Shown one piece after another: positions 47,144 through 51,090 of a DNA stretch of 64,000 bases. The stretch spans positions 452,001 through 516,000 of the forward strand of contig NZ_CP134772.1 of assembly GCF_031882575.1 (NCBI RefSeq), given 5' to 3'. This stretch comes from Pseudomonas sp. VD-NE ins (GTDB taxonomy: Bacteria; Pseudomonadota; Gammaproteobacteria; Pseudomonadales; Pseudomonadaceae). Both the position numbers and the translations under genes were made by a program. The notes under the pieces are model-generated. The model was not told the origin of the DNA. It did not search any database and saw only the letters and a list, made by a program, of their open reading frames with translations. Each line of letters opens with the position of its first letter. Position 1 is the stretch's first letter.

Positions 47144-49159
47144 ATGTTCGCGCCTGCCAATCAACCGCGTTTCACGTTGACACTCGAAGGCGCCCAACAT
47201 GACCTCAAGGTCCTTGAGTTCACGGGCAAGGAAGCCATCAGCCAACCCTTTCGTTTCGAGCTGGAACTGGTCAGTGAGCGGCCGGATCTGGATCTCGAAA
47301 GCCTGCTGCACTGTCAGGCGTTTCTGAGCTTTGATGCGGACGGCTCCGGCGTTCACGGTCAGATTTATCAGGTCGGGCAGGGCGATTCCGGGAAACGTCT
47401 GACGCGTTATCACCTGAGTCTGGTACCGCGTCTGACGTACCTCGGTCACCGCATCAATCAGCGGATTTTCCAGCATCAAACGGTGCCGCAGATTATTGCG
47501 CGGGTGCTCAAGGATCATTCGATCCTGCGTGATGCCTTCGAATTTCGCCTCGGCAGCGAATACCCGGTGCGCGAGTATTGCGTGCAGTACGCCGAGAGCG
47601 ATCTGGCGTTTATCCAGCGTCTGTGTGCCGAGGTCGGCATTCATTACCATTTTCAGCACAGCCCCCAGGGTCACCTGCTGGTGTTCGGCGACGACCAGAC
47701 CGTGTTCCCGCGTCTCGCCGAGTCGACGGTGTATCTGCCGGGCAGTGGCATGTCCGCTGGTGCGCCGGCGATTCAGCGTTTCAATGTTCGCGTGGAAACC
47801 CGCACCAGCGTGGTCACTCGGCGCGACTACAACTTCGAAAAGCCGCGGCTGCAGTTGCAGAGCCGTATCGACGGCGAGCAGCGCCCGGTGCTCGAGGACT
47901 ATCACTACCCCGGTCAATTCAACGATCGTGAAACCGGCAAGCACCGGGTGCAGCGTGCGCTCGAGCGGCATGTCGCCGACTACCGTCAGGCCGAGGGCAT
48001 CAGCGACGAATCCGCGCTGGTTTGCGGACATTTCCTGCACCTGGCCGAGCATCCGCGCCACGACTGGAATGACCTGTGGCTGTTGACCGCCGTTGAACAC
48101 CATGGCCGTCAGCCGCAAGTGCTGGAGGAATCGGTGACCAGTGATGGGGAAGGATTCCAGGGTTACCGTAATAGCTTTCTCGCCACGCCGTGGGACGTGT
48201 TCTTCCGCCCGGCGCTGGGGCTGGAGAAGCCGCGCATGCTCGGCTATCAACCGGCGGTTGTGACCGGGCCGAAAGACACCGAAATCCACTGTGACGAGTA
48301 TGGTCGGGTCAAGGTGCAACTGGCCTGGGATCGCGACGGAGAATTGAACGAACATTCCAGTTGCTGGCTGCGCGTTGCCACTAACTGGGCCCATGACCGT
48401 TACGGCAGCGTGTTGATCCCGCGAGTCGGCATGGAAGTACTGGTCGGCTTCATTGATGCCGACGCCGACAAACCCTTGGTCGTGGGCTGCCTGCCCAACG
48501 CCGCGACGCCGATCCCGCTGGATCTGCCCGCAGACAAGACCCGCAGCATTTTCCGCAGCCAGAGCAGCCCCGGCGGTGGCGGCTACAACGAACTGCGCAT
48601 CGAAGATCGCAAAGGCGCCGAAGAAATCTACCTGCGCGCCCAGCGCAACTGGACGCAGCATGTGTTGAATGATCAACAGGTGCAGGTCGATAACCAGCGC
48701 AGCATTGTTGTCACCGGGACCGCTCGGCACGAGTTGAAGGCTGATGAGCAGCGCATTACTCACGGTCAGCGGCAGACCGAAGTGAAGCAGGACGACCATC
48801 TGAGCGTGATCGGCGACCGGCATATTCGCGTGAGCAATCAGGCGATCAGCGCCAGTGGGCAATTCCACGTCAGCGCCGGTCAGCAAGTGGTCATTGATGG
48901 CGGGGCGAGTGCGACGATTCAGGCCGGTGGGCAGTGGATCAACATCGGCCCGGGTGGCATTTTCAGCAGCGTGCCGATTGTCGTGGGCGGCGCGCCGATG
49001 GCGGCGATGAGTGCCGCGCCGGTTGTACCGGGATTGCCGGAGAAACTCGCCGCCGCGCCGGCTGCCATGCTGACGGCTGCACAAATCATGAGCTTCAAGG
49101 GTGACGCGCCATTCTGCGAAGAGTGTGAACGTTGTAAGGATGGTCTCTGTGCAGCCTGA
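47144..49159 (+). CDS. vgrG: Type VI secretion tip protein VgrG
   Basis: 671 residues. VgrG forms the trimeric spike tip of the T6SS tube. The gp27-like base (about 1-370; VSERPDLDLESLLHCQAFLSF, LTYLGHRINQRIFQHQTVPQII) and gp5-like part (DEYGRVKVQLAWDRDGE, SSCWLRVATNWAHDRYGSVLIPRVGMEVLVGF) are clear, followed by a repetitive beta-helix stalk. There is no large C-terminal effector; the tail ends in CEECERCKDGLC with four Cys (658, 661, 664, 669). It lies away from the main T6SS genes, none of which are in the window. A DUF4123 gene follows with overlap. Confidence 0.93.
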   Translation: MFAPANQPRFTLTLEGAQHDLKVLEFTGKEAISQPFRFELELVSERPDLDLESLLHCQAFLSFDADGSGVHGQIYQVGQGDSGKRLTRYHLSLVPRLTYLGHRINQRIFQHQTVPQIIARVLKDHSILRDAFEFRLGSEYPVREYCVQYAESDLAFIQRLCAEVGIHYHFQHSPQGHLLVFGDDQTVFPRLAESTVYLPGSGMSAGAPAIQRFNVRVETRTSVVTRRDYNFEKPRLQLQSRIDGEQRPVLEDYHYPGQFNDRETGKHRVQRALERHVADYRQAEGISDESALVCGHFLHLAEHPRHDWNDLWLLTAVEHHGRQPQVLEESVTSDGEGFQGYRNSFLATPWDVFFRPALGLEKPRMLGYQPAVVTGPKDTEIHCDEYGRVKVQLAWDRDGELNEHSSCWLRVATNWAHDRYGSVLIPRVGMEVLVGFIDADADKPLVVGCLPNAATPIPLDLPADKTRSIFRSQSSPGGGGYNELRIEDRKGAEEIYLRAQRNWTQHVLNDQQVQVDNQRSIVVTGTARHELKADEQRITHGQRQTEVKQDDHLSVIGDRHIRVSNQAISASGQFHVSAGQQVVIDGGASATIQAGGQWINIGPGGIFSSVPIVVGGAPMAAMSAAPVVPGLPEKLAAAPAAMLTAAQIMSFKGDAPFCEECERCKDGLCAA

Positions 49160-49862
49160 TTTTCTTTTGCCAGCCGATTGGTTGGCGCGGGAGCCGTTGA
49201 AAGCGTCCGAGCAAATGTTCGCGGTATTCAGCAATACCAGCGAGGCGAAGCCGCTTGAGGGTTGGCCAGGCATGGCGAGTCCGATCTGGGCCGAGACGAT
49301 CTATGCCGAGTGGGATGCGGTGATGCCTTACGTGGGAATTGTCGCTACTGACAGTGAGTTTCTGCATTGGGTCGCCACTACCGAGTCGCTGGATTGGGGA
49401 TGGTTGGCGGTTTCTTCGGCGAATCTTGAAGAGGTGGTGGCGCACTTTCGCAGCCTGACTCAAGTGCTGATGCCTGACGGCAAAACGGTGTTTTTTCGTT
49501 TCTGGGATGGGCGGTTTCTCTTGCCGATTTTGCAGGCCGATGAGGTGGGCGCGGCGCAACTGTTTCCGCTGATCGGGCGTTGCTTGATCAATGGGCAGGC
49601 GCTGGAAATTGGTGGCAGGGCGCAGGTTTCGGTGCGGTCATTTCCGTGGTGGCAGGTGCCGGAGTCAGTGCTGGCACAGCAGGGTAATGACGTTCCAACG
49701 GCCAACGCGTTGCAGTGGTTGAGCGAGGAGTATCCGGCTCTTTTCGAGGCCTTTCCCGAAGCAGTTTTGCGTTGCAAGGTCAGGCGGTTTTTTCAGGTTT
49801 CAATGTCGGAAGAATCGTCGCAATCGGCGTTGCTGGCGTTTTTGCTGGCAGAGTCGGAGTGA
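49149..49862 (+). CDS. DUF4123 domain protein (T6SS effector adaptor/chaperone)
   Basis: 237 residues starting at GTG 49149, 7 bases after AAGGA; an ATG at 49140 is possible. Overlaps the end of vgrG by 11 bases. DUF4123 proteins load effectors onto a cognate VgrG. The first part (AVFSNTSEAKP, WDAVMPYVGIVATDSEFLHWV, WGWLAVSSANLEEVVAHFRSL, VFFRFWDGRFLLPIL) fits the family. The cognate effector would be expected next, but no effector-like gene follows. Confidence 0.8.
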   Translation: MQPDFLLPADWLAREPLKASEQMFAVFSNTSEAKPLEGWPGMASPIWAETIYAEWDAVMPYVGIVATDSEFLHWVATTESLDWGWLAVSSANLEEVVAHFRSLTQVLMPDGKTVFFRFWDGRFLLPILQADEVGAAQLFPLIGRCLINGQALEIGGRAQVSVRSFPWWQVPESVLAQQGNDVPTANALQWLSEEYPALFEAFPEAVLRCKVRRFFQVSMSEESSQSALLAFLLAESE

Positions 49863-49942
49863 GTTTTCGGGGCGAAGGTCTCGGACGATTCCTTCGAGTT
49901 GCGGCGGTTTTCATGAACTGGTGGGCGGTGGGTTGCAGGGAT

Positions 49943-50156
49943 AGTCTTAAAAGGTCACCGCAGATGCGGCGACAGGGTGTAGGAGCCTTGAGACTAGAAG
50001 AGTGCATAAACGTCGTTGCCTGGTTTGCGGCAGTCTATGTGCGTCCGTAAGATCATTTGCGGCGGTTATGTGCGGGCACGCTTCGGCGTGGCCGAGTTCT
50101 CTGGTCTCGGTACTCCTACCCCGCGCATGGCTGCCACCCAAACCCGTAGGAGGGCG
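49943..50156 (+). ncRNA. Candidate structured RNA leader upstream of the DUF3077-type gene
   Basis: Several hairpins line up before the gene. First an outer stem AGTCT (49943) / AGACT (49991) with AAGG / CCTT inside, enclosing hairpin GTCACCGC-AGAT-GCGGCGAC (49954-49973). Then CACGC-TTCG-GCGTG (50077-50090), CCGAG / CTCGG (50092-50110), and CTCCTAC (50113-50119) pairing with GTAGGAG (50146-50152). The last stem covers an AGGAGG just before an in-frame ATG at 50157. This would be a cis-acting translational switch. The folding is read by eye and not calculated. Confidence 0.5.
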
Positions 50157-50192
50157 ATGGTGGAAGCTCATTTCACTACCAGAGGTTCAAAA

Positions 50193-50513
50193 ATGAAAAC
50201 GCTAACACCCGATCCACCCTACGAAAAGATCATCCCTCATCCCGACAACCGCTTCATGGCCCTGACCGGCAATTGCAGCGACATGCCGGCCCTGTTCATC
50301 GACACCCACGTGCCTCTCGACATCCTCATGGACGCCGCCAACCATCGTCTGCGCGCCGTGATCCAGGTGCTGGAAAACATGTGCATGCGCGGCTCGGTCG
50401 AATGCGACTCCGTCATCCTCAGCGATTTCGCCCAGCTCTGCGTTATCCCATTGCGTGATGGCTGTGATGTGCTTGATGTTATCGGCAGGCGCCTGCGCAG
50501 CATGCCCTCCTGA
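50193..50513 (+). CDS. DUF3077 (DUF6124)-type small protein
   Basis: 106 residues; a hydrophilic protein with a helical C-terminus (MDAANHRLRAVIQVLENMC), of the small-protein type common in fluorescent pseudomonads, function unknown. The ATG at 50193 has AGAGG 7 bases upstream. The frame is open 59 codons further up, across the structured leader, with alternative ATGs at 50157 (after AGGAGG) and earlier, so a longer product is possible. Located after vgrG-DUF4123, but no domain suggests a T6SS function. Confidence 0.6.
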   Translation: MKTLTPDPPYEKIIPHPDNRFMALTGNCSDMPALFIDTHVPLDILMDAANHRLRAVIQVLENMCMRGSVECDSVILSDFAQLCVIPLRDGCDVLDVIGRRLRSMPS

Positions 50514-50520
50514 AAAAGAT

Positions 50521-50600
50521 CAAAAGATCGCAGCCTGCGGCAGCTCCTACACCGGAATAACGTTCACCCTGTAGGAGCTGCCGAAGGCTGCGATCTTTTG
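50521..50600. repeat. Intergenic palindromic repeat (family B)
   Basis: CAAAAGATCGCAGCCTGCGG arm and reverse complement ending at 50600, with a slight asymmetry (CCTGCGG against CCGAAGG). Sits between the convergent DUF3077-type and Tai4-like genes. Confidence 0.9.
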
Positions 50601-50621
50601 ATGTTGATGGCGATCGGAGCG

Positions 50622-51035
50622 TCAGTCGGAAATGTACGCGTCCTGAGTGTTGATAAAGCGGTTGAACGCCTCGGAGTTGTAGACCTTCAGGCACGCAAGG
50701 AACACTACTTTTTCATTCGAGTATTTGCTGTTTGAAGGTGTCTGTTGGTAAGCCGCCAACACGTAGTTTCGGGTTTCTTTATAGGGATCGTGCAGCACCT
50801 GCAGCGTGTCTTCATTTTGCAGAATGGTATGCATGCCTTTGCCCATAAACGAATAGGCATTGGCGGACAGTGCAATGTCTTTTTCCAGCAAGGAGTGTTC
50901 GTTGAATGGCTTTAGGATGCAGTGGCTCAGGCCGTAGTTCTTTAGTGTCTGGCGTGCCTGTTCAATGTGGGTTTCGTCGGCAAGGGCGAGGTATGGGTCA
51001 AGCAGACTGAGTAAGCAGATGATCAGATATCGCAT
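50622..51035 (-). CDS. Tai4-like T6SS amidase immunity protein (putative)
   Basis: 137 residues with a signal peptide (MRYLIICLLSLLDPYLALA-DE), start at ATG 51035 after GGAAG. The pattern NYGLSHC, KDIALSANAYSFMGKG and FLACLKVYNSEAFNRFI resembles Tai4 immunity proteins, which protect the periplasm from Tae4 amidases: their blocks are NY..LA.C.., DAG...AL, FLKCLDLYHS..LD. The paired effector is not seen in this window. I infer family membership from remembered patterns; a search would settle it. It lies 462 bases from the VgrG-adaptor genes on the opposite strand. Confidence 0.55.
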   Translation of the reverse strand: MRYLIICLLSLLDPYLALADETHIEQARQTLKNYGLSHCILKPFNEHSLLEKDIALSANAYSFMGKGMHTILQNEDTLQVLHDPYKETRNYVLAAYQQTPSNSKYSNEKVVFLACLKVYNSEAFNRFINTQDAYISD

Positions 51036-51090
51036 GAGTTTTTGACTTCCTGTCGTCATGGTTAGCCAGTTTAACGCCATAAAAGCAAAG

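Follow-up and report, generated by a model that had tools for sequence, protein, structure and literature searches.

A probable immI-type C4 antisense-RNA module, as in phage P1, on the chromosome of a Pseudomonas with some forty C4 copies

The c4 antisense RNA is described from Proteobacteria and phages, and the accompanying c4-a1b1 element from gamma-Proteobacteria and phages (Weinberg et al. 2010, PMC2864571). In phage P1, RNase P is reported to release C4 from a longer transcript, and C4 to repress in trans (PMC5320573, PMC8546580), the repressed step being the synthesis of Ant (PMC8546580). C4 is thus a known RNA, and its occurrence in multiple copies has been published for Acinetobacter baumannii, in which 21 C4-like sRNAs are described as expressed and apparently processed at GGW, with incoming phage mRNAs offered as one possible target (PMC5320573). 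These Group 1 sRNAs resemble the RNAs reported here in being multi-copy in one chromosome and in having a variable specificity loop, which that paper calls a′ and which we call b′ in line with the P1 names (PMC5320573). The available part of that account names no cis target genes, whereas here every copy is followed by a gene that matches it.

We analyzed a 64,000-nucleotide stretch of Pseudomonas sp. VD-NE ins DNA (hereafter, the window). Within it, positions 49941 to 50513 very probably (roughly 0.87) constitute a C4 antisense-RNA module of the P1 immI type located on the chromosome. The parts of such a module, their order and complementarity, their covariation among homologues and purifying selection on the gene can all be read from the sequence. 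A search of the whole window against Rfam returned a single RNA over the cut-off, the C4 antisense RNA (RF01695), at 50055 to 50141 on the forward strand. It covers the full model (1-87) with 64.7 bits and an E value of 3e-10, for a cut-off of 45 bits; the C4 of phage P1 itself scores 68.8 bits by Rfam. A laxer run on positions 49850 to 50700 added c4-a1b1 (RF03163), comprising a 5′ hairpin and the first target sites, at 49941 to 49993 on the same strand, with a sub-threshold 31.0 bits against a gathering score of 46.7. By every tested feature except that a1b1 score, the RNA is a member of the known family. Beyond C4 and c4-a1b1, this run, with E up to 1, gave only three miRNA matches, which are below the cut-off and look false, and no match to a riboswitch, a thermosensor or another known leader family. 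The miRNA matches fall on a long palindrome 3′ of the gene (50517 to 50603), with the core TGTAGGAGC, which we take to be REP-like; the window holds 8 copies of this core, versus 0.13 expected, and one of them spans site a1 (49978 to 49986).

Site names follow the phage P1 record, where a2 comes immediately after C4 and b2 shortly before icd; the sequence identifies a′ as the strand 3′ of hairpin P3 and b′ as the loop of P3. All the window's sites lie on the forward strand. Site b′, CTCTGGT (50099 to 50105), is the 7-nt complement of b2, ACCAGAG (50178 to 50184). The latter overlaps the Shine-Dalgarno sequence AGAGG (50181 to 50185), which is seven bases 5′ of the ATG at 50193. The a′ strand, CTCCTAC (50113 to 50119), is complementary to both a1 and a2: GTAGGAG at 49979 to 49985 is its perfect 7-nt complement, and the same motif at 50146 to 50152 begins four bases past the end of the C4 match. 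Site b1, GAGACTAGA (49990 to 49998), can form a duplex with the P3 loop and adjoining flank that includes one G-U pair, and of 4 bp only when limited to Watson-Crick pairs; eight of its bases come from the pairing analysis and the ninth from inspection of the sequence. A conserved 70-nt block at 49877 to 49946 on the forward strand, ending in GGATAGTC, is a probable promoter. We propose it from conservation only, because a scan for the sigma-70 consensus found none; no terminator consensus was found either.

The window shares with the P1 and P7 immI regions (RF01695, RF03163) the clover fold, the a′ and b′ segments and, probably, the duplication of the target sites as a1b1 and a2b2. The order a1, b1, C4, a2, b2, start codon is the same as in P1 and the spacing is similar, b2 lying 18 to 11 nt before icd in P1 and 15 to 9 nt before the ATG at 50193 here. 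Unlike in P1/P7 immI, the a1b1 element falls below the Rfam cut-off; unlike in P1, a non-phage gene for a 106-residue protein replaces icd-ant, and the module is chromosomal, one among tens of paralogous modules.

The predicted fold agrees with this identification. The 87-nt C4 alone folds with stem P1 closing hairpins P2 and P3 at -45.6 kcal/mol (z -4.66; 0/200 shuffles as good), and both its minimum-energy and centroid folds are the clover with a′ and b′ free. P1 and two hairpins were present in 71/71 C4 sequences folded, the window's own being counted twice, and among the 42 C4 of the own genome folded in isolation, a′ was free in 37 and b′ in 34. The whole 251-nt leader also folds better than shuffles (z -3.0; 2/200 as good), which bears out the view of the initial annotation that the leader is structured. 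That annotation had further proposed that CTCCTAC at 50113 to 50119 pairs with GTAGGAG at 50146 to 50152 as the last leader stem, hiding an AGGAGG ribosome-binding site before an in-frame ATG at 50157. All of these elements are present as claimed, and the named stem covaries, with CTCCTAC/GTAGGAG, TTCCTAC/GTAGGAA and CTTCCAC/GTGGAAG found in homologues. The complementarity stands, but none of the stretches folded has this hairpin in its minimum-energy structure. Across the whole leader a′ pairs upstream with a1, and in C4 alone or C4 with the 3′ leader it is an unpaired strand of the clover. Likewise, in the 42 leaders of the genome the post-P3 strand is mainly paired upstream in 18, unpaired in 22, paired within C4 in 2 and paired downstream in 0. 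Since GTAGGAG is the target a2 located 3′ of C4, the stem is better described as the a′/a2 antisense-target pair.

The same reassignment applies to the start of the gene. Of 13 syntenic orthologues, 10 have GTAGGAA or GTGGAAG in place of the proposed ribosome-binding site, as befits a covarying target a2 rather than a Shine-Dalgarno sequence. Regardless of frame, 6/13 of these orthologues have an ATG near 50157. As a start codon it is disfavored, being in frame and open in 3/13 of them and in 8/42 loci of the own genome. In contrast, the start at 50193 is kept in 13/13, as ATG in 11 and GTG in 2, and it is likely the true start. The reading frame is open across the leader of this copy, as the initial annotation had noted, and a longer protein from 50157 may be made from it; because the ATG at 50157 is poorly kept and the start at 50193 is kept among the syntenic orthologues, the open leader frame looks incidental. 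The initial annotation thus most likely misplaced both the ribosome-binding site and the start codon.

The target gene (50193 to 50513, forward strand) codes for a protein of 106 residues that belongs to an unnamed family with 235 homologues, which we call the W family. It had been taken for a DUF3077-type gene, an assignment that Pfam does not bear out, as the protein matched no Pfam family at E up to 0.1, and none in NCBIfam or PHROG. The dN/dS values of 0.08 to 0.22 in 13/13 syntenic orthologues indicate that the gene is under purifying selection. Its AlphaFold2 model is a two-helix hairpin (pLDDT 84.6), and that of a DUF6124 protein likewise has two long helices (pLDDT 73.7). Common ancestry of the two families found no support, the profile comparison giving a probability of 4.7 and aligning only the N-terminal PDPP/PNPP motif. 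Sequence comparison gave no support to P1 Icd as a relative of DUF6124, DUF3077 or the W family, and solved structures were discarded as relatives by sequence (best E 0.02). Among the 120 of the 235 homologues that are listed, those with organism names come from Pseudomonas, except for a single gammaproteobacterial MAG and a single compost metagenome. A homologue was found in 76 of 149 Pseudomonas genomes searched, the own genome included.

In the window, the module is located in a type VI secretion system neighborhood (47144 to 51080), between vgrG-DUF4123 and a Tai4-like gene whose match is weak (E 0.0012, below the cut-off). At the 13 orthologous loci, DUF4123 is present in 13, vgrG also in 12 within the stretch compared, and the Tai4-like gene in 7.

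To compare homologous loci, we took the best 30 of the window gene, its own included; of the other 29, 28 have C4 ahead of the gene. In the 13 syntenic orthologues, the 70-nt upstream block is 77 to 100% and the gene 81 to 95% identical to those of the window, and the cassette between them is 60 to 72% identical in 10 of the 13 and alike in the others, L105 (100%), L109 (95%) and L115 (82%). The identities do not run in parallel. L106 has an upstream block 100% and a gene 92% identical to the window's with a cassette at only 66%, whereas L109 has a cassette at 95% and a gene at only 86%. This contrast suggests that the cassette has been replaced as a unit rather than by steady drift.

Loop and target change together in the homologues, as in CTCTGGT/ACCAGAG, CCTAACGT/ACGTTAGG, CCATGATTG/CAATCATGG and others, and a2 covaries with a′ and a1. 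For a pairing test, loci with the same loop were merged, which left 22 different loops from 29 loci. The loops pair better with their own targets than with those of others, both at the Shine-Dalgarno region (mean 7.14 versus 4.15) and at the upstream element (6.05 versus 4.60), with 0/10000 permutations as high in each case. The two comparisons for the post-P3 strand give 7.14 versus 6.38 (0/10000) and 6.73 versus 6.22 (23/10000). Crossed controls in this set gave no excess, with 2311/10000 and 9868/10000 permutations as high. The loop run is only 5 in five of the 29 loci (L106, L108, L111, L112 and L130); if G-U pairs are allowed, four of them reach 10 to 12, and L130 stays at 5.

The window's module is one of many. 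The own genome, a single contig of 6.7 Mb, has 42 C4 matches, 41 of them over the cut-off, and 41 c4-a1b1 matches at E <= 0.001, of which 19 are over the cut-off; the window's is among the 41. Neither search gave a match in any of 14 named control genomes. The 42 C4 are followed by 34 DUF6124 genes (PF19619), 4 DUF3077 genes (PF11275), 3 genes of the W family and 1 Bro-N gene. DUF6124 and DUF3077 are also small proteins behind the same C4 leader, and the window protein matches neither. The remark in the initial annotation on similar leaders before such genes is thereby borne out for pseudomonads. Its suggestion of a regulatory RNA family holds insofar as the element is conserved and bears on access to the ribosome-binding site; the family, however, is the known C4 (RF01695) and not an unnamed one. 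In four genomes, the first frames after C4, which were chosen automatically, match one of the three small-family profiles in 136 of 159 cases, and among the remaining 23 are wrongly chosen frames, genes resembling Bro-N and short frames at the front.

Several loci of the own genome deserve separate mention. Four C4-DUF6124 modules (L008, L009, L029 and L066) lie within 6.4 kb at G000 C1:1820921-1827285, and their genes are 89 to 94% identical with four different loops. At L006:1501-2151 (G000 C1:6396084), C4 precedes the Bro-N gene, which matches phage anti-repressor families; C4-linked frames similar to it are present in other Pseudomonas genomes. In L001 and L002 (905577 and 311299), a short frame separates C4 from the DUF3077 gene, an arrangement like icd-ant of P1. 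A c4-a1b1 match at G000 C1:1126856-1126908 (L073:1157-1209) precedes a DUF6124 gene with no C4 detected, and is possibly a decayed C4 module. An orphan DUF6124/DUF3077-like gene, likewise with no C4 detected, adjoins a PrrF sRNA match (L280; G000 C1:4238275-4238678). Finally, a second frame after the C4-DUF6124 gene of L071 (G000 C1:4309669) appears W-family-like by eye.

The pairing of each C4 of the own genome with its adjacent target was measured as the longest Watson-Crick run, each of the 42 being compared with its own and the other 41 target regions; for the loci at 311299, 905577 and 1715007 the first short frame served as the anchor. The mean run of the P3 loop at the Shine-Dalgarno region was 7.17 nt for own and 3.91 for other pairs, and that of the post-P3 strand was 7.21 versus 4.19 with the region just after C4 and 7.12 versus 4.76 with the upstream region. 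The P3 loop gave a weak signal with the upstream region, 5.36 versus 4.30. For all four comparisons, 0/10000 permutations were as high, and two crossed controls showed no excess (3.40 versus 3.64 and 3.52 versus 3.66). In 10 of the 42 loci the P3 loop run at the Shine-Dalgarno region is at most 5, little above the non-cognate mean. The first three results were repeated in three more genomes, with 0/2000 permutations each, using 42/43, 45/45 and 30/30 of their C4 matches, the weakest match of G096 (34.6 bits) being left out. Loop runs of at least 7 were found in 28/42, 23/42, 29/45 and 19/30 own pairs of the four genomes, against 19/1722, 23/1722, 55/1980 and 17/870 other pairs.

Duplex energy was dropped as a measure of specificity in favor of run length because it is, we think, confounded by the bases of the P3 stem. 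By energy, cognate pairs beat permuted ones for both target pairs and are the best of 42 in 8 and 5 cases, the P3 loop of the window copy ranks its own Shine-Dalgarno region 11th of 42, and the P3 loop with the upstream element gives no signal.

Within each of the four genomes, all P3 loops are distinct (42/42, 42/42, 45/45 and 30/30; 159/159 altogether), whereas a-sites are shared among copies (24, 26, 26 and 23 distinct). Combinations that could cross-pair at the two sites together, with runs of at least 7 and at least 6, number 2/1722, 1/1722, 4/1980 and 1/870. The neighboring copies at 2604936 and 2606378 illustrate this privacy, their genes being 98% identical and their loops unrelated, each matched by its own target. 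Among paralogue pairs with coding sequences at least 80% identical, which are not independent of each other, a loop is shared in 0/78 within genomes versus 37/235 between genomes; this comparison omits the 10 of the 159 loci that lack a long frame close to C4. In a label-shuffle test, 44/5000 shuffles were as low, a figure confounded by orthology. The exclusion of shared loops within a genome is thus suggestive only, because orthologues share loops by descent.

C4 is widespread in the genus, with a match over the cut-off in 109 of 119 Pseudomonas genomes. The 110 genomes with any match include 46 with at least 20 copies and 17 with 33 or more, these copy numbers being lower bounds, as 33 candidates were scored per genome. 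In a class-wide sample of 369 genomes, the own one included, 24 had a C4 match. Single-protein queries against 50,697 phage records returned 0 matches for the window gene, 0 for a DUF3077 protein and 1 for a DUF6124 protein. Of the 60 frames that flank the modules we surveyed 47, which belong to 30 of the 42 loci; among the 25 of 39 matched families listed, there is one KilA-N and one integrase core, the others being ordinary chromosomal families. The window's own module lacks the phage genes and the Ant-type target of a prophage immI region, its flanks being vgrG, DUF4123 and the weak Tai4-like gene and its target having no match to Ant or another family. From the phage-record queries and the mostly chromosomal flanking families, most C4 copies look like resident chromosomal modules, not prophage immunity regions.

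From this organization we infer the following course of transcription, processing, action in trans, repression and its relief. A single transcript would carry a1-b1, then C4, then a2-b2, and last the small gene that starts at 50193. C4 would probably be cut from it, as RNase P does in P1, and the released RNA would adopt the clover fold of three stems, leaving two segments free. Its a′ would pair with a2 just 3′ of C4, and b′, in the P3 loop, with b2 on the Shine-Dalgarno sequence of the ATG at 50193. Such pairing would block translation, so that the gene would normally be silent, and it would open if free C4 were scarce or the targets escaped. In the uncut transcript of this copy, pairing with a1-b1 is predicted to be the more stable alternative, and it may keep C4 inactive until cutting.

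Other explanations of the same locus have to be weighed against this antisense module. A leader switch acting in cis, be it riboswitch, thermosensor or attenuator, in which the hairpin between 50113-50119 and 50146-50152 hides the ribosome-binding site, was the logic put forward in the initial annotation. It would account for the covarying complementarity and for a leader more structured than shuffles, but the hairpin is missing from the minimum-energy folds and no leader of the 42 pairs mainly downstream. The hidden site is probably away from the real start codon, and what Rfam recognizes is C4, an antisense RNA described as trans-acting in P1 (PMC8546580), with the pairing that of antisense and target rather than a leader hairpin. 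We thus regard a cis switch as very improbable. Trans action in P1 (PMC8546580) would also be in keeping with C4 copies whose main targets are other RNAs, for example mRNAs of incoming phages, and not the neighboring gene, and the available part of the A. baumannii account names no targets (PMC5320573). However, pairing with the adjacent cognate target is far above chance in four genomes and co-changes across homologues, which makes other RNAs unlikely as the main targets. Also very improbable, in our view, are inert left-overs of P1-like immunity regions without present function. C4 is a phage element, one of the 42 modules precedes a Bro-N anti-repressor-like gene, and KilA-N and integrase core frames occur in the flanks; but decay of this kind is at odds with purifying selection on the window gene and the maintained pairing, with the presence of C4 in 109/119 Pseudomonas genomes, and with the near absence of the products from phage records (0, 0 and 1) and the otherwise ordinary chromosomal character of the listed flanking families.

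A further possibility refines the antisense module and is compatible with it, namely that C4 serves as the antidote to a putatively harmful small protein, in an immunity-like or type I toxin-antitoxin-like arrangement. The private loops would then define specificity groups that silence like copies only, for instance when one enters a new cell. The antisense half of a type I system is supported by the pairing seen in the sequences, and the first C4-controlled gene of P1, icd, is annotated as an inhibitor of cell division. No loop is common to two copies in any of the four genomes, even coding sequences 98% identical have unrelated, target-matched loops, and the cassette acts as a unit at a conserved locus. 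On the other hand, P1 Icd has no sequence relation to the three families, anti-phage defense models gave no match (0/42), and insulation between paralogous regulators would equally explain private loops. An antidote function is therefore conceivable, with the odds against it.

None of the papers found, judged by title or abstract and with most subscription papers outside the search, reports C4 control of DUF6124, DUF3077 or the W family; the one DUF3077 paper found concerns furfural tolerance (PMC9630843). The target genes, the private loops and the cassette replacement appear to be new. As a tentative picture, one that we put forward as a conjecture, pseudomonads may have domesticated dozens of P1 C4 circuits as mutually insulated antisense locks, each holding one small helical protein of the DUF6124, DUF3077 or W family. 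The a1b1-C4-a2b2 cassette would be swapped as a unit between alleles, with no key shared in a genome. Shut in a settled genome and opening in a cell without the matching C4, such locks might form an RNA-run immunity- or incompatibility-like system.

These observations give C4 RNAs beyond phages a named mechanism and testable targets, and they tie three uncharacterized Pseudomonas protein families to one regulatory device. Some forty apparently orthogonal antisense-target pairs per cell offer material for the study of how RNA specificity diverges, and perhaps building blocks for synthetic regulation. Should the modules prove immunity- or addiction-like, a layer of genome conflict would have gone unnoticed in a genus that is well studied.
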